From positions 1 through 34,347 of the IMG/VR virus record IMGVR_UViG_3300025425_000078: a stretch of DNA of 34,347 nucleotides, one strand, 5' to 3'. Made by a program: the position numbers and the translations under genes. Of this stretch, positions 4,276 to 26,636 are shown one piece after another. This DNA comes from a virus. Below the pieces are notes generated by a model, which worked only from the letters and a program-made list of their open reading frames with translations, was not told the origin of the DNA and did no database searches. Every line of letters starts with the position of its first letter. The stretch's first letter is position 1.

Positions 4276-6068
4276 TTATTCGTTTCTCCTATGGATTTTT
4301 TAAACATTTCTTTAGTTATTTTATATTTACTTTGAAAATTTGCTGAGTTCATTCTTTGTGCATCTGTTCTTCTTAATGCTATTTCTAACTCAGTAAAACC
4401 ATAAGTATTCTTTTTAGCTGTTTTTTTATCATCAAAGGTAACCTCAGAAACTTCAAATGATTTTAGTTCTTCAGGATTTACAACAGTAGTTTGCTTACTA
4501 GAACTGTCGTCTCCATAAGTAGGTTTATCTTTTGATGCTTCAATTAATTCTTGTTCTTCTTCTTGAAATCTATTTCTAACCCAGTCTTTAAATTTTGTTC
4601 TTCTATCAGCTTTAGTAAAACCAAGCTGTTCTCCTGCTACTGGATTTCCTGTTTCTCCTATAGGGTGATTGGCTAACCATTCAATAGCATCTTGTCTAAA
4701 TTGAAATTTTAAAGCAGGGTCTACATTGTTTATTAGAGAACCTTTTGAATTTGATATAATATCTTGCATAATTCCATCTATTCTGTTTTCAAAATGTCTG
4801 TACGTTTTTGAATTTAATAAAGGGTCTTCACCTGAAATTTTAAAATTACTAATTACATCTTTGTAATCATTATAAAATTTTTGTTGTATTTTACTTTGAT
4901 TTTCAACAAGAAATTCCATTGCTTCAGTGTATTTACCTGTTGTAATTAATTCGTTTAAGTTTTCTTCAATACCCATTTCAGTTTGTGAACTAAAACCAGT
5001 TTGTCTCTCAGAAAATATTTTTTTGATTTTTTCTTTTTTATAAGATGAATAAGTGTCCCATCTAGGGTCTTCTTCTTTAGCTTCATTAAAAGTTATATAT
5101 CTATCTGCAACAGTTAGACCTTCTAGATATTCACCTTGTCTTAATGCTTCAGTTCTTTCATTCCTATCTTTTATTTCTGCTGTCGTTCTATCTTGAAGTT
5201 TATCTTTAATTTGAAACAAATCATCTTTAAGACCTTTAATATCTCCTAATTTACCAGTTCCTAATTCTATATGTTTCGGAAGTTCTTCTAATATTTTCTC
5301 TGCATATTCATAGTCACCAGTTTTGTCAGCATAATCTGTTAGTGTTTCTAATAGATACTTTTGTGCTGAACCATTACTTAAACCATTTGCAGTTTTATCT
5401 TTTATAAATGCTGATATGTTTGCACCAATTTCTGCAAAACTTTTACTTTCATCAAAAAGACCTTGAATACTATTCTGAAAATTAATTTTATATTGTTCAC
5501 TAATATTAGCCATTTGTGAACTAACATGAGTTTGAAATAATTGTGCTTTAAATCCTGAAGTTTTTTGAAAGAAACCATTTTCTAAATCTATGGGTTTATA
5601 AGCACCTAAATTATTTTTAGCTACATACTGTTTAATTTCTTGTGCATAAAACTTTTGAAATGCTTCTGGGTCAGGATTTTCTGAAACTTTCATTTCAGCA
5701 TATTTAGTTCCTAACATATTAGAAAATATTTGTGCTTTAGTATTAAGTTCTAACTCTTTATATTTATCAATAAAATAAGGATTAGCTTCTTTTGGAAGTG
5801 TTCCATTATTAACTCTAGTATTAAATGCTGTTCTATTTGCATTATATTCTTTTAAGGCTTCAGCTTCATTTACTTTCTTTTCTTTAACTTCAGAAGCAAT
5901 AACCATTTTTGCACCTGCATTATTAACAAAATTATTCAAAGAAGCAGTCAATTCTTTCATACCTGCTATTTCAGGCTTTACTTGTGGTGTATAAAATAAG
6001 TTAAAGTCTGAGGATAGAACCTGTCTTGCATCAGGTTTTAAATCTAGTTTATCTGTTTTTCTTGCCAT
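4272..6068 (-). CDS. Internal virion protein, T7 gp15-like
   Basis: A 598-aa protein, highly charged and Lys/Glu/Asn/Gln-rich, predicted to be mostly helical, with no membrane segment or enzyme motif. It lies between the gp14-like and gp16-like genes, where T7 has gp15 (747 aa), a core protein ejected with DNA. The start codon overlaps the gp14-like stop as TAATG, and its stop overlaps the next start as ATGA, so the three core proteins are probably translationally coupled. Sequence similarity to T7 gp15 is not obvious by eye; the call is mostly from position and composition. Confidence 0.7.
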   Translation of the reverse strand: MARKTDKLDLKPDARQVLSSDFNLFYTPQVKPEIAGMKELTASLNNFVNNAGAKMVIASEVKEKKVNEAEALKEYNANRTAFNTRVNNGTLPKEANPYFIDKYKELELNTKAQIFSNMLGTKYAEMKVSENPDPEAFQKFYAQEIKQYVAKNNLGAYKPIDLENGFFQKTSGFKAQLFQTHVSSQMANISEQYKINFQNSIQGLFDESKSFAEIGANISAFIKDKTANGLSNGSAQKYLLETLTDYADKTGDYEYAEKILEELPKHIELGTGKLGDIKGLKDDLFQIKDKLQDRTTAEIKDRNERTEALRQGEYLEGLTVADRYITFNEAKEEDPRWDTYSSYKKEKIKKIFSERQTGFSSQTEMGIEENLNELITTGKYTEAMEFLVENQSKIQQKFYNDYKDVISNFKISGEDPLLNSKTYRHFENRIDGIMQDIISNSKGSLINNVDPALKFQFRQDAIEWLANHPIGETGNPVAGEQLGFTKADRRTKFKDWVRNRFQEEEQELIEASKDKPTYGDDSSSKQTTVVNPEELKSFEVSEVTFDDKKTAKKNTYGFTELEIALRRTDAQRMNSANFQSKYKITKEMFKKSIGETNK

Positions 6069-7113: not shown

Positions 7114-9460
7114 AATATCCTTGCCAACTTGCGTTGATAAAATTACAAGGCAAATGACTATCAGAAGCTAGTGTTACTGTAAGTTTGTCACTTTCAGATT
7201 GAACAGCAAAGGTGTAATCACCATCAGCTAAATTAACAGTACCTAGTAATCCTGTTCCTGTAATCGTTCCTGTAAATGTTGTTGATGAATTACTTCTTCC
7301 TACTGGTGTAACTACAGTTGTAAAATAACCAGTGTTGTTATAATTAACACTCCAATTTCTTATTTGTAATCTACCTTCTTTAATAGATATTCTTGAACCT
7401 TGTGCATCAGCTTCTTGTATAAATTGTTGAGAAAATACAAATGTAAAAGTATAATCTTCTCCAATAAAATAATCATAAGCAGTAATATCTCCTGAAACTA
7501 CAACAGAAGTGCCTGTTTGTGATACTATAGTAATTTCTTGTCCTGCTTGATTTGAACCTGTACTTGCTCCTACAATACTTAATGTATTAGTCTTTGTATA
7601 AGGTATTGTTATTGTTGTTTGATTAGTACCAGAGTTATAAGTTTCACTAACTCCTGATGTACTATTAGTAATTTTTCTATCTAAATGTGTTAAATAATCA
7701 GCACTGGTATCAGTTATAGCAGGTGATATGTCCATTGTTTCTAAGTAGACCCCATCACTTCTCTGGTTCACTATATATAAAGTGTTATCAATAAAATCTA
7801 TATTTAATATTTTATCTGTAGAAGAAGTACCAAAAGTCCATTTATGCCATGCACTTTGTAATCTCTTTCCACCAGTTACATAATATTGGTGAACATATAT
7901 TGCATTTTGTTCATTAGAAGATAATGCCAACATAATGTTTTCATTAGTTGCAATTGCTAGTTTGAATACTCCTGAAGGAATATATCTAGGCACATTACTT
8001 GTAATATCATCAGCACTTTTAGTATCTGTATCTGATTTAACATAAAATTCTCTAAAGCCTGTAAATGCTCCTTTTTGAAAAGCAAAGAATACATTACTAC
8101 CTGAACCTATAGGTTTAACTGAAGAAGATGCTTCAAATTCTGTTGATACATTTATTGAAACATTTTCAGGTGTAATTGTACTATTAGTACCTGCTAGTAT
8201 AAATTGTGTTTGGTCTGAAAATAAAAGTATTCCTTCATCAAAAGATATTGCACTTCTAAGTATTGATACTTTATTGTGTGTAGAAGCTACATCAATTACA
8301 TCAGTTGCTAATACAGTAGTTACTGTTTCATTAAAAAATGCAAAGTATTCTCCTGACCTTGACATAACAACATTCTCATCAGCTAGAAAACCTAATCTAT
8401 TTTTATGAAAGAACATGTCATTAATTTTTCTACCAATAAAACTAGGGTCAGGTGCAGAAACTTCATCTCCACTTATTCTTAAACCCCAATTAGGTACAGT
8501 ATAATCTGTTCCTGATATTGTATAAGTAGAACCATCTACTTGTGAAAATCTAAAATTACCATCTGCTGTTCTTATTAAAACATGTGGCATTGTAGTGTTG
8601 TCTAAAGTTGTCTCCATGTTTGGAGAAACACTCTCTTGCCAAACATCACCACTACTATCATATTGAACGTAGTAATCATCAAAACCATTTGTTGCATCAC
8701 CAGTAATTTTAACAATCATATTATTGATTGCAGGTGAAGGTAAATCTACGAAATTTTGTACTGTGTCTCCAACTATTTGTGAAGCATCATCTCCATAACC
8801 ATCACTAGCTGAAACTACTAGAGTTCCTGTAGATTTAATTATTGAGAAACTTGAAGTTCCAACATCAGCGAATGTAATATTAGCTATAGTTCCACAAGCT
8901 GTTTTAACTCCATCTCTAATGGTTTCTGTATTTGTATCTGAACTTGTAAATGAGAAAGTAGAGCCATCAATAGTTATTGTATATTTTGTTGAAGTAACAC
9001 CTTGTAATACTGAATAAATAGCTTGTTCAACTTTAGCTGTACTAGTTGTACCACTCATTGCAGTTGTTTTAGTCTTATTAAGAATAAAAGTATAATCAGC
9101 AACAGTCATTGCAACAAAGTCATTCTTAGGGTCTGTTGCTGTTAAGTAATTAACTGCTCCTGTTTGTAGTGTTACTGTTTTAGAAACACCTGCTGTTGTA
9201 TAAACTGCTATTACTCCATTAGTAATTTGTACTAAATATCTTTCACTAACATCTCTGTTAATAGTGTGTATGTAAGCATTATTAGGTGTTGTACTGCTTA
9301 ATTTTGCTAAATAAGTAGTAGGGGGTCTTTTTTTTAAACCTTCTACAACTGAACTAAAACCATTTTCTTGTGTAGTAGCTTGGCTAGATAATCTCAATAC
9401 TTCTGGTTGTTGAGAAATACCCTGCACTAAGTTAGGGATAGTCCTAGAGACTAATGCCAT
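7088..9460 (-). CDS. Tail tubular protein B (nozzle), T7 gp12-like
   Basis: A 790-aa protein, essentially the length of T7 gp12 (794 aa). The N-terminus 'RTIPNLVQGISQQPEVLR' and the following 'QENGFSSVVEGLKKRPPT' are diagnostic of podoviral tail tubular protein B. The rest is Ser/Thr/Asn-rich beta structure with a beta-propeller-like composition. It forms the distal tail nozzle below the gp11 adaptor. Its ATG follows the stop of the gp11-like gene with no gap, indicating coupled translation. Confidence 0.95.
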   Translation of the reverse strand: MALVSRTIPNLVQGISQQPEVLRLSSQATTQENGFSSVVEGLKKRPPTTYLAKLSSTTPNNAYIHTINRDVSERYLVQITNGVIAVYTTAGVSKTVTLQTGAVNYLTATDPKNDFVAMTVADYTFILNKTKTTAMSGTTSTAKVEQAIYSVLQGVTSTKYTITIDGSTFSFTSSDTNTETIRDGVKTACGTIANITFADVGTSSFSIIKSTGTLVVSASDGYGDDASQIVGDTVQNFVDLPSPAINNMIVKITGDATNGFDDYYVQYDSSGDVWQESVSPNMETTLDNTTMPHVLIRTADGNFRFSQVDGSTYTISGTDYTVPNWGLRISGDEVSAPDPSFIGRKINDMFFHKNRLGFLADENVVMSRSGEYFAFFNETVTTVLATDVIDVASTHNKVSILRSAISFDEGILLFSDQTQFILAGTNSTITPENVSINVSTEFEASSSVKPIGSGSNVFFAFQKGAFTGFREFYVKSDTDTKSADDITSNVPRYIPSGVFKLAIATNENIMLALSSNEQNAIYVHQYYVTGGKRLQSAWHKWTFGTSSTDKILNIDFIDNTLYIVNQRSDGVYLETMDISPAITDTSADYLTHLDRKITNSTSGVSETYNSGTNQTTITIPYTKTNTLSIVGASTGSNQAGQEITIVSQTGTSVVVSGDITAYDYFIGEDYTFTFVFSQQFIQEADAQGSRISIKEGRLQIRNWSVNYNNTGYFTTVVTPVGRSNSSTTFTGTITGTGLLGTVNLADGDYTFAVQSESDKLTVTLASDSHLPCNFINASWQGYYVTASSRV

Positions 9461-22363: not shown

Positions 22364-24058
22364 TTAAATACAGAAAAATACAGACTGTTTAACAAGGTCT
22401 AAATCCAATTTTCCCTTTGTAGGCATTTTTGGGAATTTCTTCTGGTTCTTCTCAGAAAGCATTGCATACATTTCATCAGCAAAATTCTTCAGCACATCTT
22501 TCTCATATATCTCACAAAATGCTTCTCTTAGTGCTTTTCCCATTAAATGACTGTCACTAGCTACACAACCGAAGCTGTCATGTATCATACTGAAGTTATC
22601 TACTCCTAACTCTTTAGCTTTAACTACACATAGCTGTAAAACTGCACCATCTAGTTGATGAATATAATTTGGGCAGATACCGAGACTGGTGGCTCGTCTA
22701 GAAATTTTATTAGTATCATGTGCTATGGAAAGTTTGACTATACTATCACCCATTTGTGTCTTAACTCTTTTACTTTCCTTTTCATAACATAACATCTGAA
22801 TAGGAAAATTATTAGGGGAAGTCCAACATACAGGTAAGTTTTCAGATGCAACAAGTTTTGCTATATCTTTTAAGTATTGCATAATATTCTTTGCACCTAC
22901 AATAATCTCATTGATACTCTCCCATAGAATAGGTGTGAGCCAGTTAGTTGCATGGAATATACCATCTTCTCTGTCTGATATTCTAAAGGTTTCTAAAGAC
23001 ACTCCTCGTTCATTAAATTGTTTCCTCATGTGTTCTTCAATATATTTTCTACATGAGAATTTAGTTAATGAGTAAGGCAAACACATCACTGGTTTCTTAC
23101 ATATCTTTCTGTCTATTCCATAGTCTATCCACTTCTTAGCTAAGGGTTCAGATTTCATATCCCTAAGTTTCATAATAAGTTTTTGTGCAACTAAATTATA
23201 AACATCACTAGGTTTATTAGATGGTATGAGATTAGTAGCCTTGCCCCCTATTTCATCTCTCATCATTGCTGAGTAGTGCTGTAGTCCACTATTAGAGCAA
23301 TCAGCTTGAATAGGTAGTGTAGTTATAAAGTCAGGTGAATAATCACTCTTAACAAAATCTCTAAATTCTAAAGCCCATGCAAGAAAACAATAAGGTTTAT
23401 CTGCACTAGCCCACCATGTGTCTTCTAAAGGTTTATCTGCTGATGCAATTATCTTATCAGTATTATCTTTGACCCATTGTTCTCTAATAGATAATTCTTC
23501 CTTATCTACTTCTCCATATAAGTTAGCACCTGCTATTGCAAAAACACTATAGCTATCATTATTACCCATTCGCTTACCAAACTTAAATGTAAGTAATGCT
23601 CTTGAATAATCTGCTGACTGTGGGGATAATAAACTTGGCTTAGGATATACACGACCTCTGAAGTCCAACTGATAAGGATAAAAGAAACCCCCCTTATCTA
23701 ATAACAAACTTGCTTCTTCCATGATTAGTCTAACTTGAATAAATTTAGACATAGCTTGACCCATAGATTTATGAACATGTTGTGCTTCACGTTTCCATTT
23801 TATCAAAGCATCTTTATTAGTTTTAATGTCAAATGGTTTAGGTGGTAACTCCATTGCTCTAGGATTTACTGGAAGCTGACCTAAGTTAAAATCATTCTCC
23901 ATACATGTCTTGATTACGTTATATATAGGCTTATTAATAACCCATTCAGTTTCTTGTATTATATTTACACTGTCATAAACAACAGGCATCTCATGTACCT
24001 TATTATTTAATTCTTCTAAATATCTTCTATTACTTGCTTTTACTAAATTGTAGTGCAT
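22364..24058 (-). CDS. T7-type RNA polymerase, C-terminal catalytic part (second half of split gene)
   Basis: A 564-aa protein holding the polymerase domain of a T7-type enzyme. Catalytic residues: D253 in QADCSNSGLQHYS (T7 D537), R317/K321/Y329 in RKICKKPVMCLPY (T7 R627/K631/Y639), and D494 in MIHDSFG (T7 D812). It begins at the point matching T7 residue about 410 and has no N-terminal promoter-binding domain of its own, which is on the gene just upstream. The ATG overlaps that gene by 29 bp in the +1 frame and has its own ribosome site AAAGGA 8 nt upstream, so independent initiation is likely. The product probably pairs with the N-terminal part. It ends FFCI where T7 ends FAFA. Confidence 0.92.
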   Translation of the reverse strand: MHYNLVKASNRRYLEELNNKVHEMPVVYDSVNIIQETEWVINKPIYNVIKTCMENDFNLGQLPVNPRAMELPPKPFDIKTNKDALIKWKREAQHVHKSMGQAMSKFIQVRLIMEEASLLLDKGGFFYPYQLDFRGRVYPKPSLLSPQSADYSRALLTFKFGKRMGNNDSYSVFAIAGANLYGEVDKEELSIREQWVKDNTDKIIASADKPLEDTWWASADKPYCFLAWALEFRDFVKSDYSPDFITTLPIQADCSNSGLQHYSAMMRDEIGGKATNLIPSNKPSDVYNLVAQKLIMKLRDMKSEPLAKKWIDYGIDRKICKKPVMCLPYSLTKFSCRKYIEEHMRKQFNERGVSLETFRISDREDGIFHATNWLTPILWESINEIIVGAKNIMQYLKDIAKLVASENLPVCWTSPNNFPIQMLCYEKESKRVKTQMGDSIVKLSIAHDTNKISRRATSLGICPNYIHQLDGAVLQLCVVKAKELGVDNFSMIHDSFGCVASDSHLMGKALREAFCEIYEKDVLKNFADEMYAMLSEKNQKKFPKMPTKGKLDLDLVKQSVFFCI

Positions 24059-25007
24059 CTGCTATTTCCTTTGGTTTATTTTCAAAATTATGTTTTTTTC
24101 CATAGTAACCCCCCAAAAATGGTGACGACCATTTGCGAGGTGGCATTAACATTGGTAAAAATTTTGGAAACAATGCTTCATTCTTAATGTTGAAGTTTTT
24201 TATTTCCTTAATAATTTTAGGTGTAGGTTGAACATAAGTAATAGTCTTAGTCTTATTAAGTTTCATATTACCTACTTTAACTAAGCCTAATAACTCACAG
24301 AGATGTATCATCTGAACACCTAAATGAAGCCTATGCTCTTTAGACCAATCATCAAATTGAAGTTCATGCTTGTTCATACAATAGACCCAAACATTCTTCT
24401 TATACTGCCATCTATTGGTCTTCTGGGGTATGTTTCTACCTTCTAATCGCTTGGCTACCTGATTATATTCAGTCTTCTTCTGCTCTTTAAATAGAAGTAT
24501 TCTAGCTTCAAGCATGAGAGCATTACCTAATACAATAGATAATTTATTTAAGGTACATTCACTAGAGATACCATCAATAACATTCTTTAATATTATCAAT
24601 GAACAAGTATCAAATATACTCTGGTTGTTAGACATCTTTTTAGTGTCTTGATTAAAAGCATTTTGAGATAAACATTGAACTATCTTTTTAACTGCTATGT
24701 GATGTGTTCCTACTTGACCAGTCTCTATTTTTTCCACCTTCAAATAAATTAAACTAGAAAGTTTATCTATATATTTTTGTTGTTGAAATAGACCATACAT
24801 GGTCGTACTCTCTTGTTTCTTAATCCTAGCTTCAGTGACTAGGTGCTGATACCTGTCAATACCACCTCTTATCATCTTCTCCTCGAACTCTATTTCTTCT
24901 TGTATTTTTTTAATGTAATCTTCTTTATCTTTAAATTTACCACCTACTCCAACCTTAACTAACTCAGCTAATTGTTCTTGTAGTAAGTTTGCTTGTGTAT
25001 CAGACAT
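24030..25007 (-). CDS. T7-type RNA polymerase, N-terminal part (first half of split gene)
   Basis: A 325-aa protein corresponding to the first 400 or so residues of T7 RNA polymerase. Its last conserved block 'LFPKFLPMLMPPRKWSS' followed by GGYYG matches T7 'PMVCPPRPWTGITGGGYW'. The early part 'FEEKMIRGGIDRYQHLVTEA' and 'VGTHHIAVKKIVQCL' fit the N-terminal domain, which binds the promoter and the initiating RNA. After GGYY about 20 residues (rich in Lys, Asn and Glu) have no T7 counterpart before the stop. Together with the next gene the total is 889 aa (T7 883 aa). There is AAGGA about 11 nt before the ATG. Either a natural two-subunit enzyme or a frameshifted gene. Confidence 0.85.
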   Translation of the reverse strand: MSDTQANLLQEQLAELVKVGVGGKFKDKEDYIKKIQEEIEFEEKMIRGGIDRYQHLVTEARIKKQESTTMYGLFQQQKYIDKLSSLIYLKVEKIETGQVGTHHIAVKKIVQCLSQNAFNQDTKKMSNNQSIFDTCSLIILKNVIDGISSECTLNKLSIVLGNALMLEARILLFKEQKKTEYNQVAKRLEGRNIPQKTNRWQYKKNVWVYCMNKHELQFDDWSKEHRLHLGVQMIHLCELLGLVKVGNMKLNKTKTITYVQPTPKIIKEIKNFNIKNEALFPKFLPMLMPPRKWSSPFLGGYYGKKHNFENKPKEIADALQFSKSK

Positions 25008-25043
25008 AATGAGAACATTTCCTTACATTTTGTATGCACATGT

Positions 25044-25270
25044 GACTGTTGCACAAGTTCTGTTGCATTTGTTTCACGAACAGTGCAGTAGTGCATATAT
25101 GCAGTTTATAAAAAAAGGTGTTGATGTTAAAGAATAATAATACAGCAGTGCATGTAATTTTTTTGTGAGTAGTTCCTAAGACCAGTGTTTTCACCATAGC
25201 CTTGATACTACTTACTTTATAATTCATACAGTGCAACACATCACTCATAATGCAACACCTTGTGCAACAA
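25044..25270. other. attP-like integrase binding region
   Basis: A gene-poor stretch between RNA polymerase and the tRNA holds an array of short repeats. TGTTGCA occurs at 25047 and 25061, and its inverse TGCAACA at 25232, 25251 and 25263. Between the two groups, at 25171-25182, is AGTTCCTAAGAC, an exact copy of the anticodon segment of the adjacent tRNA-Leu (25335-25346). Two sites on one arm, three inverted on the other and a core between, spanning about 220 bp, is the classic design of a phage attachment site for a tyrosine integrase, whose gene lies just beyond. Function is inferred from layout. Confidence 0.6.
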
Positions 25271-25291
25271 AAATAACCCATTTGTTGCTTA

Positions 25292-25376
25292 TGGTAGGCG
25301 AAAAAGGACTCGAACCTTCACCTCTTGCGAGACCAGTTCCTAAGACTGGCGTGTCTACCAATTCCACCATTCGCCC
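25292..25376 (-). tRNA. tRNA-Leu (anticodon TAG)
   Basis: A complete 85-nt tRNA on the minus strand. The acceptor stem is GGGCGAA/TTCGCCT (one G-U pair), D arm GTG/CAC with GGTAGA, anticodon stem CCAGT/ACTGG with loop CTTAGGA (anticodon TAG), a class II variable arm CTC-GCAA-GAG, T arm GAAGG-TTCGAGT-CCTTT, discriminator A and an encoded CCA. The long variable arm and A73 fit leucine. It lies between the integrase gene and the attP-like repeats. It could serve phage translation, restore a host tRNA disrupted by integration, or both. Confidence 0.93.
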
Positions 25377-25406: not shown

Positions 25407-26636
25407 TTATTTAATCAACCCTTTTGAGTTATGACCTATTAAAGAAATTACGTTACTATCATTAATACTATTAACAGCTTCTCTTAATGCTTCAGGTGTT
25501 TCTTGTGCATAGTATTTTAGTACAGTCTCAATGCTTATTCCTGCAAGTTTTGAGATAACTTTAACTGGTGTTTTTGTTTCACATAATCTTGTAATGAAAG
25601 TATGTTTTGTTGAGTATGGTGTGAAGTCTTTTATCTCTAATATCTTCCCATACTTTTCAAAAAAAGTTCTCATACTTCTTACAGTTACATTCGGAAATAA
25701 CTTTCTAGACTTATGTGCTATCGCAGTCTCTCGATATTTAACACAGATACGATAAGCAATATCATTTAGAGGTAAATCACCTGACCATTGCTGTGTCTTA
25801 TGACGAAAAAAATTAATAGTCTTATTCTTATAATCAATACAATCTATAGTAAATTTAGCATCATAAAATTCAAACTGTAATCTTTGACCTAAACCATTAA
25901 TTAAATACTGCATTGCATCTGCATGTTCTTCATCATTATTAGCATAAGCTAAATCAATAACTTTAATTTCATCTTCTCTACTAATTGGTTTCTTACTTTT
26001 ACTTTTAATAACACGCAGGTTACTCCAACCCATATCTCTAATTCTTAAATCTGCATTAAGTAATTTAGACTGCTCTAACATTCTTTTTGATATAGCTTCT
26101 CTAAAAGTTTCTCTTAATACTGAAAGTCTATGATTAGTTGTTCTGGTATTAAAGGTAGCTAAATTATTATTAGGTCGTTCAATGATTGTCTTCTCCATGT
26201 ACTTAATGAAACCATTGTAGTAACCATCAGTTTGCATGTCTTCAAGTTTAATATCTGGTGAGAAATAATTTAAAATATCTCTAATATAAATTTTAATATT
26301 TGTCTCATTCCCCTTGCCTTCCCACTGCTTAGTGTAAGTCATCTCCAAACAATCTTTTAGTGTTCCATGAGTTATAACCTTCTTACCATTCTTTCTTGAA
26401 TGATAATTTGCTGAAGTTAATTGTTCAAGATGTTTGGCTTTTATCTCTATAGCTTCTTGTAGTGATTTCTTAAAAGAAGTATCACTGTTATCTAATATAC
26501 TAACAGTATCATAAGCACTGTCCTTAACTTCTTGACCATCAACTATCATTCTTTTTCTTGTTTGAACTACAAGTAAATTATCTCGTTTAAGTCTGATACC
26601 TGCATGTAGTTTTAATATAGCTTCTCTACTGTTCAT
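25407..26636 (-). CDS. Tyrosine-type site-specific integrase
   Basis: A 409-aa phage integrase. The N-terminal half is a Lys-rich arm- and core-binding region, and the C-terminal catalytic domain has R252 (LGQRLQFE), K280 (FRHKTQQWSGDLPL), the box 'TPYSTKHTFITRL' (337-351) and the nucleophile near Y375/Y376 (TVLKYYA). Compared with the usual H-x-x-R-H and L-G-H boxes, the first His is Tyr341, the Arg is Lys344, and the last His position is Ile367. The enzyme would insert the phage into a host tRNA-Leu gene. AAGGAG lies 5 nt before the ATG. It is followed by the tRNA and attP-like array, as in many temperate phages. Confidence 0.93.
   Translation of the reverse strand: MNSREAILKLHAGIRLKRDNLLVVQTRKRMIVDGQEVKDSAYDTVSILDNSDTSFKKSLQEAIEIKAKHLEQLTSANYHSRKNGKKVITHGTLKDCLEMTYTKQWEGKGNETNIKIYIRDILNYFSPDIKLEDMQTDGYYNGFIKYMEKTIIERPNNNLATFNTRTTNHRLSVLRETFREAISKRMLEQSKLLNADLRIRDMGWSNLRVIKSKSKKPISREDEIKVIDLAYANNDEEHADAMQYLINGLGQRLQFEFYDAKFTIDCIDYKNKTINFFRHKTQQWSGDLPLNDIAYRICVKYRETAIAHKSRKLFPNVTVRSMRTFFEKYGKILEIKDFTPYSTKHTFITRLCETKTPVKVISKLAGISIETVLKYYAQETPEALREAVNSINDSNVISLIGHNSKGLIK

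Follow-up and report, generated by a model that had tools for sequence, protein, structure and literature searches.

The window, as we call the whole stretch of DNA analyzed here, is the 34,347-base IMG/VR virus record IMGVR_UViG_3300025425_000078. On its minus strand an integrase gene is followed by a complete tRNA-Leu(UAG), the candidate phage attachment site (attP) and an RNA polymerase gene, in that order. The first-pass annotation had described the neighboring gene as a tyrosine integrase, and the ORF (25407-26636, minus strand) does match Pfam Phage_integrase (PF00589, E 1e-07) and the PHROG integrase entry (8e-25); its product shares 87.8% amino acid identity with the HTVC011P integrase. 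The tRNA (25292-25376, minus strand; ARAGORN, and Rfam RF00005 at 56 bits) is the proposed replacement tRNA, and the first gene after attP is the N-terminal half of a T7-like RNA polymerase (24030-25007, minus strand; Pfam RPOL_N). This polymerase is encoded by two overlapping ORFs (22364-25007, minus strand), a split already known in the HTVC011P-type phage group (PMC6811365). HTVC011P is 86.9% identical to the window across the integrase-tRNA-attP-RNA polymerase region, and the window phage is a Stopavirus-like pelagiphage, a strain distinct from HTVC011P. The same succession of integrase, tRNA-Leu(UAG), anticodon-loop core and RNA polymerase is found in HTVC011P, HTVC041P (Stopavirus) and HTVC025P, with tRNA-Leu(TAG) likewise adjoining the integrase in the latter two, and the integrase-tRNA-attP arrangement is kept in HTVC011P, HTVC041P and those IMG/VR relatives that extend to attP. 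In the Gjalp record (L005, 3659-3758), 100 N lie between two CTTAGGA copies and the tRNA-attP region is unreadable there.

The candidate attP has the layout of lambda-type integrase sites, with arm-type repeats on both sides of a core, three on one side and two inverted on the other. Putative TGTTGCA arm-type sites lie on the minus strand at 25263-25269, 25251-25257 and 25232-25238 and on the plus strand at 25061-25067 and 25047-25053, exactly where they had been reported at first pass, and all five are aligned in HTVC011P and HTVC041P. Five copies within 223 bp compare with about 0.04 expected (shuffles give 6.0 per 34 kb; the whole window has 17). The arm motif varies with phage group, being TGTTGCA, TGATACA/CGTATCA or GTCTACG.

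The 12-bp core, GTCTTAGGAACT on the minus strand (25171-25182), is common to the phage tRNA; the exact repeat of the anticodon region claimed earlier was recovered, with AGTTCCTAAGAC present both at 25171-25182 and inside the tRNA gene at 25335-25346, and the similarity between core and phage tRNA extends to 26 nt at 77%. That the core copies tRNA-Leu stands, with the refinement that the match that matters is the one to the host: the window core matches SAR11 host tRNAs with a CTGG stem over 14 bp (CTGGTCTTAGGAAC), beyond the 12 bp of the phage tRNA. Within the core, the place where host sequence gives way to phage sequence at the lysogen junctions points to a 7-bp overlap, CTTAGGA (25174-25180, minus strand), equal to the tRNA anticodon loop. 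Anticodon stems of host tRNA-Leu(UAG), from a search of 297 members of the order, were TTGG, TCGG, CTGG, CTAG and CCAG. The anticodon stems of phage tRNAs (window, L025-L033, L068, L192) are often unlike the host's, a difference that might stop the integrase from acting on the tRNA which the phage itself carries.

According to Chen et al. (2019; PMC6811365), tRNA-Leu(TAG) is the integration site of HTVC011P, HTVC025P and uv-Fonsiphage, and the phage tRNA replaces that of the host; tRNA-dependent lysogeny has been named, and shown experimentally, in mycobacteriophages (Guerrero-Bustamante and Hatfull, 2024; PMC10865867). A scan of a genome collection yielded related integrases in nine SAR11 assemblies, every one followed by a complete tRNA-Leu(TAG), and a further screen, in which five of 397 genomes from the order matched, added a tenth lysogen (G254). 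These lysogens are single-cell and metagenome assemblies whose integrases are 27-41% identical to that of the window over the matched stretches. In all ten, attR reads integrase, intact phage tRNA-Leu(UAG), arm sites, core, 3' half of the host tRNA and trigger factor gene. The opposite junction, attL, was read in eight (G001-G003 and G005-G009) and consists of host flank, 5' half of the host tRNA, core, phage arm and RNA polymerase. None of these ten attR and eight attL junctions, the kind of evidence for which a search had been proposed at first pass, falls inside the complete phage tRNA, and the expectation that crossover occurs at the short 12-bp copy is thus borne out in relatives. Of the eight prophages with both junctions readable, four (G002, G003, G006, and G008) confine the exchange to GTCTTAGGA, with host stem TTGGT versus phage stem TTAGT on the left side and phage GATACC versus host ACCAAT on the right. 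G001 confines it to the same place, with CTTAGAA, while G005, G007, and G009 have longer stretches common to host and phage around the junction. The lysogen with the closest integrase (G254, 41%) carries three TGTTGCA sites in its attR; its second junction was not found in its assembly. By pattern search, the phage copy was the only intact tRNA-Leu(UAG) recovered, and the host copy was split, in 9 of the 9 listed assemblies, all of them incomplete, so that a second tRNA-Leu(UAG) could escape detection.

Some SAR11 host loci have unusual structures. In L185 (1260-1440) and L186 (1529-1706) the host tRNA-Leu(UAG) has a CCAG stem like that of the phage tRNA and is followed by inverted fragments resembling the 5' half of the host tRNA and then by trigger factor, an arrangement possibly left when a phage tRNA took over. 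In L031 (9490-9630), three ATCGTATCA arm-like motifs lie between the 3' end of the host tRNA and trigger factor and are possibly the scar of an earlier integration.

The attP elements given by the first-pass annotation hold, but it missed an inverted repeat around the core. We compared 37 attP sequences, 29 from phages and 8 from joined lysogen flanks. In most of them C', the segment on the right-hand side of the overlap, has an inverted counterpart, S, on the left-hand side at a distance of about 26 nt. In the window, C' (ACTACTCAC on the minus strand, 25165-25173) adjoins the overlap and S (GTAAGTAGT on the minus strand, 25207-25215) lies 26 nt from it. The repeat is strong in many attP (p about 0 in L126, L134, L137, and L152, for example) and weak in L130, L131, HTVC011P (p 0.69), and the window (p 0.06). 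Over 20 lineages and 15 pairs it behaves as a covarying helix, with 74% paired cells versus 55% in shuffled data and a covariation score of 0.527 versus 0.225 shuffled, and the score does not exceed 0.227 when the arms are slid by 1-3 columns. The RNAalifold consensus is weak (-1.23 kcal/mol), essentially all of it from covariation. Across relatives this covarying repeat is a genuine feature of the core region, and integration separates its arms, S ending in attR and C' in attL. In the attP of L117, L118, L119, and L126 the inverted repeat contains a second copy of the core, displaced by 21-22 bp or about two turns of the helix.

We infer one of two roles for the repeat: an RNA hairpin of the sense strand that precedes the RNA polymerase gene and is cut by integration, or an extra DNA site of the integration complex. 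To the DNA reading, in which the repeat would be, for example, an additional integrase or accessory-protein site and which is compatible with tRNA-dependent lysogeny, we give a substantial chance, somewhat short of even. It is favored by geometry: the distance from S to the overlap stays near 26 nt, and in most lineages a T7 tract (25110-25116, minus strand) lies at a near-fixed distance past the overlap (+56 to +58), while the distance from tRNA to core spans 86 to 167; the insertions of 21-22 bp in four relatives again amount to about two helical turns. The mismatches argue the other way, since they are mostly sense-strand G.U (27 sense versus 5 antisense on the best diagonal, among lineages that are not independent and against a background skewed about 1.8 to 1), as does the mean folding z of -4.35 on the integrase/tRNA/RNA polymerase sense strand versus -2.71 on the other, to which the same kinship and skew apply.

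The more tentative suggestion, which we consider rather unlikely, is that the core forms part of an RNA hairpin preceding the phage RNA polymerase gene, and that, with integration cutting this hairpin in two, the processing of transcripts or the expression of the polymerase would respond to the state of the phage, free or integrated. RNA hairpins near attP or ahead of a polymerase gene are known from lambda sib retroregulation and from the RNase III sites of T7. Both offer a possible analogy only, that of a hairpin which integration could part from its gene, and the present locus differs in having a tRNA between integrase and repeat. A literature word search returned no relevant paper on an attP hairpin with RNase III, which does not prove that such a precedent is absent. 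At the locus Rfam matched only the tRNA and no known RNA family for the repeat. An intrinsic terminator at the T tract was considered and set aside, a hairpin preceding the tract in some lineages only and no terminator being called in the window. Between tRNA and RNA polymerase (25000-25281, minus strand, in the window, and the corresponding part of relatives), many lineages keep one sense frame open, which is a different one in the window's clade, and the longest open run in the attP sense frame has p 0.000-0.014. A conserved protein across attP is nevertheless not proposed, as substitutions show no consistent excess at third codon positions.

Taken together, we put at roughly 90% the probability that the site in the window serves a temperate SAR11 podovirus as its attP in tRNA-dependent lysogeny. 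The arm sites, the core, the intact phage tRNA and the junction structure of relatives can be read directly in the sequences; that the integrase binds the arm sites, that the tRNA is essential and that the window phage integrates in this way would follow by extension. In the proposed mechanism, the integrase would bridge the TGTTGCA arm sites, and the anticodon-loop core CTTAGGA would recombine with the same loop of the host tRNA-Leu(UAG), whose gene precedes that of trigger factor. The 3' half of the tRNA is missing from the core, so integration would split the host tRNA without rebuilding it, and the complete phage-borne tRNA-Leu(UAG) between integrase and attP would take over from the host copy. 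Several features that mark tRNA-dependent lysogeny are present: a tyrosine integrase (by both PF00589 and PHROG), a complete phage tRNA, and, in relatives, attB in a host tRNA with a short, non-rebuilding core (eight junction pairs) and loss of the host copy with the phage copy the only intact one (the nine assemblies noted above, with their incompleteness). For the window phage itself, attB in the host tRNA is predicted by homology to its relatives and from the 14 bp that its core shares with hosts of the CTGG-stem type.

A conventional tRNA attP, with crossover in the complete phage tRNA gene and restoration of the host tRNA, might be expected from the anticodon loop which that tRNA also contains and from its position next to the integrase, but in ten lysogens the prophage contains the phage tRNA unbroken and the junction lies at the short core, and we regard this account as very improbable. 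That the 12-bp copy is a chance match, TGTTGCA a regulatory motif and the locus no attachment site at all is less probable still: taken alone, the window offers a repeat of only 12 bp, an inverted repeat short of significance and a best attP fold ranking 90th of 3428 segments, but the geometry is kept over divergent phages and serves as the junction in the ten lysogens.

The locus has parallels elsewhere. In mycobacteriophages Fionnbharth, Cluster L and Gaia, as in the window, a short core (10 bp in Fionnbharth, 8 bp in Gaia) matches the host tRNA without rebuilding it, and the phage carries a tRNA of the same isotype and putative arm-type sites, whereas hosts and integrases are unlike those of the window; the words hairpin and inverted repeat are absent from that paper (PMC10865867). 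Among pelagiphages, HTVC019P (L192) has a core, AGGATTGCAAATCCT (reverse strand, near 4714), equal to the anticodon arm of the SAR11 host tRNA-Cys, together with a complete tRNA-Cys at 8946-9019, and therefore the design of short core plus complete tRNA probably recurs there with another tRNA, in this case 4 kb from the core; no S repeat was seen on reading its sequence. The T7-like cyanophages P-SSP7 and S-TIP37 also have an integrase and an attP matching host tRNA-Leu, with integration shown experimentally, but differ in that integration is reported without stable lysogeny (PMC8776855).

The main finding is a case of a known mechanism, because tRNA-dependent lysogeny (PMC10865867) and tRNA replacement of the HTVC011P type (PMC6811365) together already describe it. 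New here is a feature of about 20 divergent attP: a covarying inverted repeat with near-fixed spacing encloses the core and is split by integration. The analysis places tRNA-dependent lysogeny in phages of SAR11, one of the most abundant marine bacterial groups, with junctions at the sequence level from natural populations, and it brings to light a conserved core-spanning repeat that is testable. The anticodon-stem type of the host is a possible marker of host range, and the mechanism offers a reason why these pelagiphages carry a tRNA.
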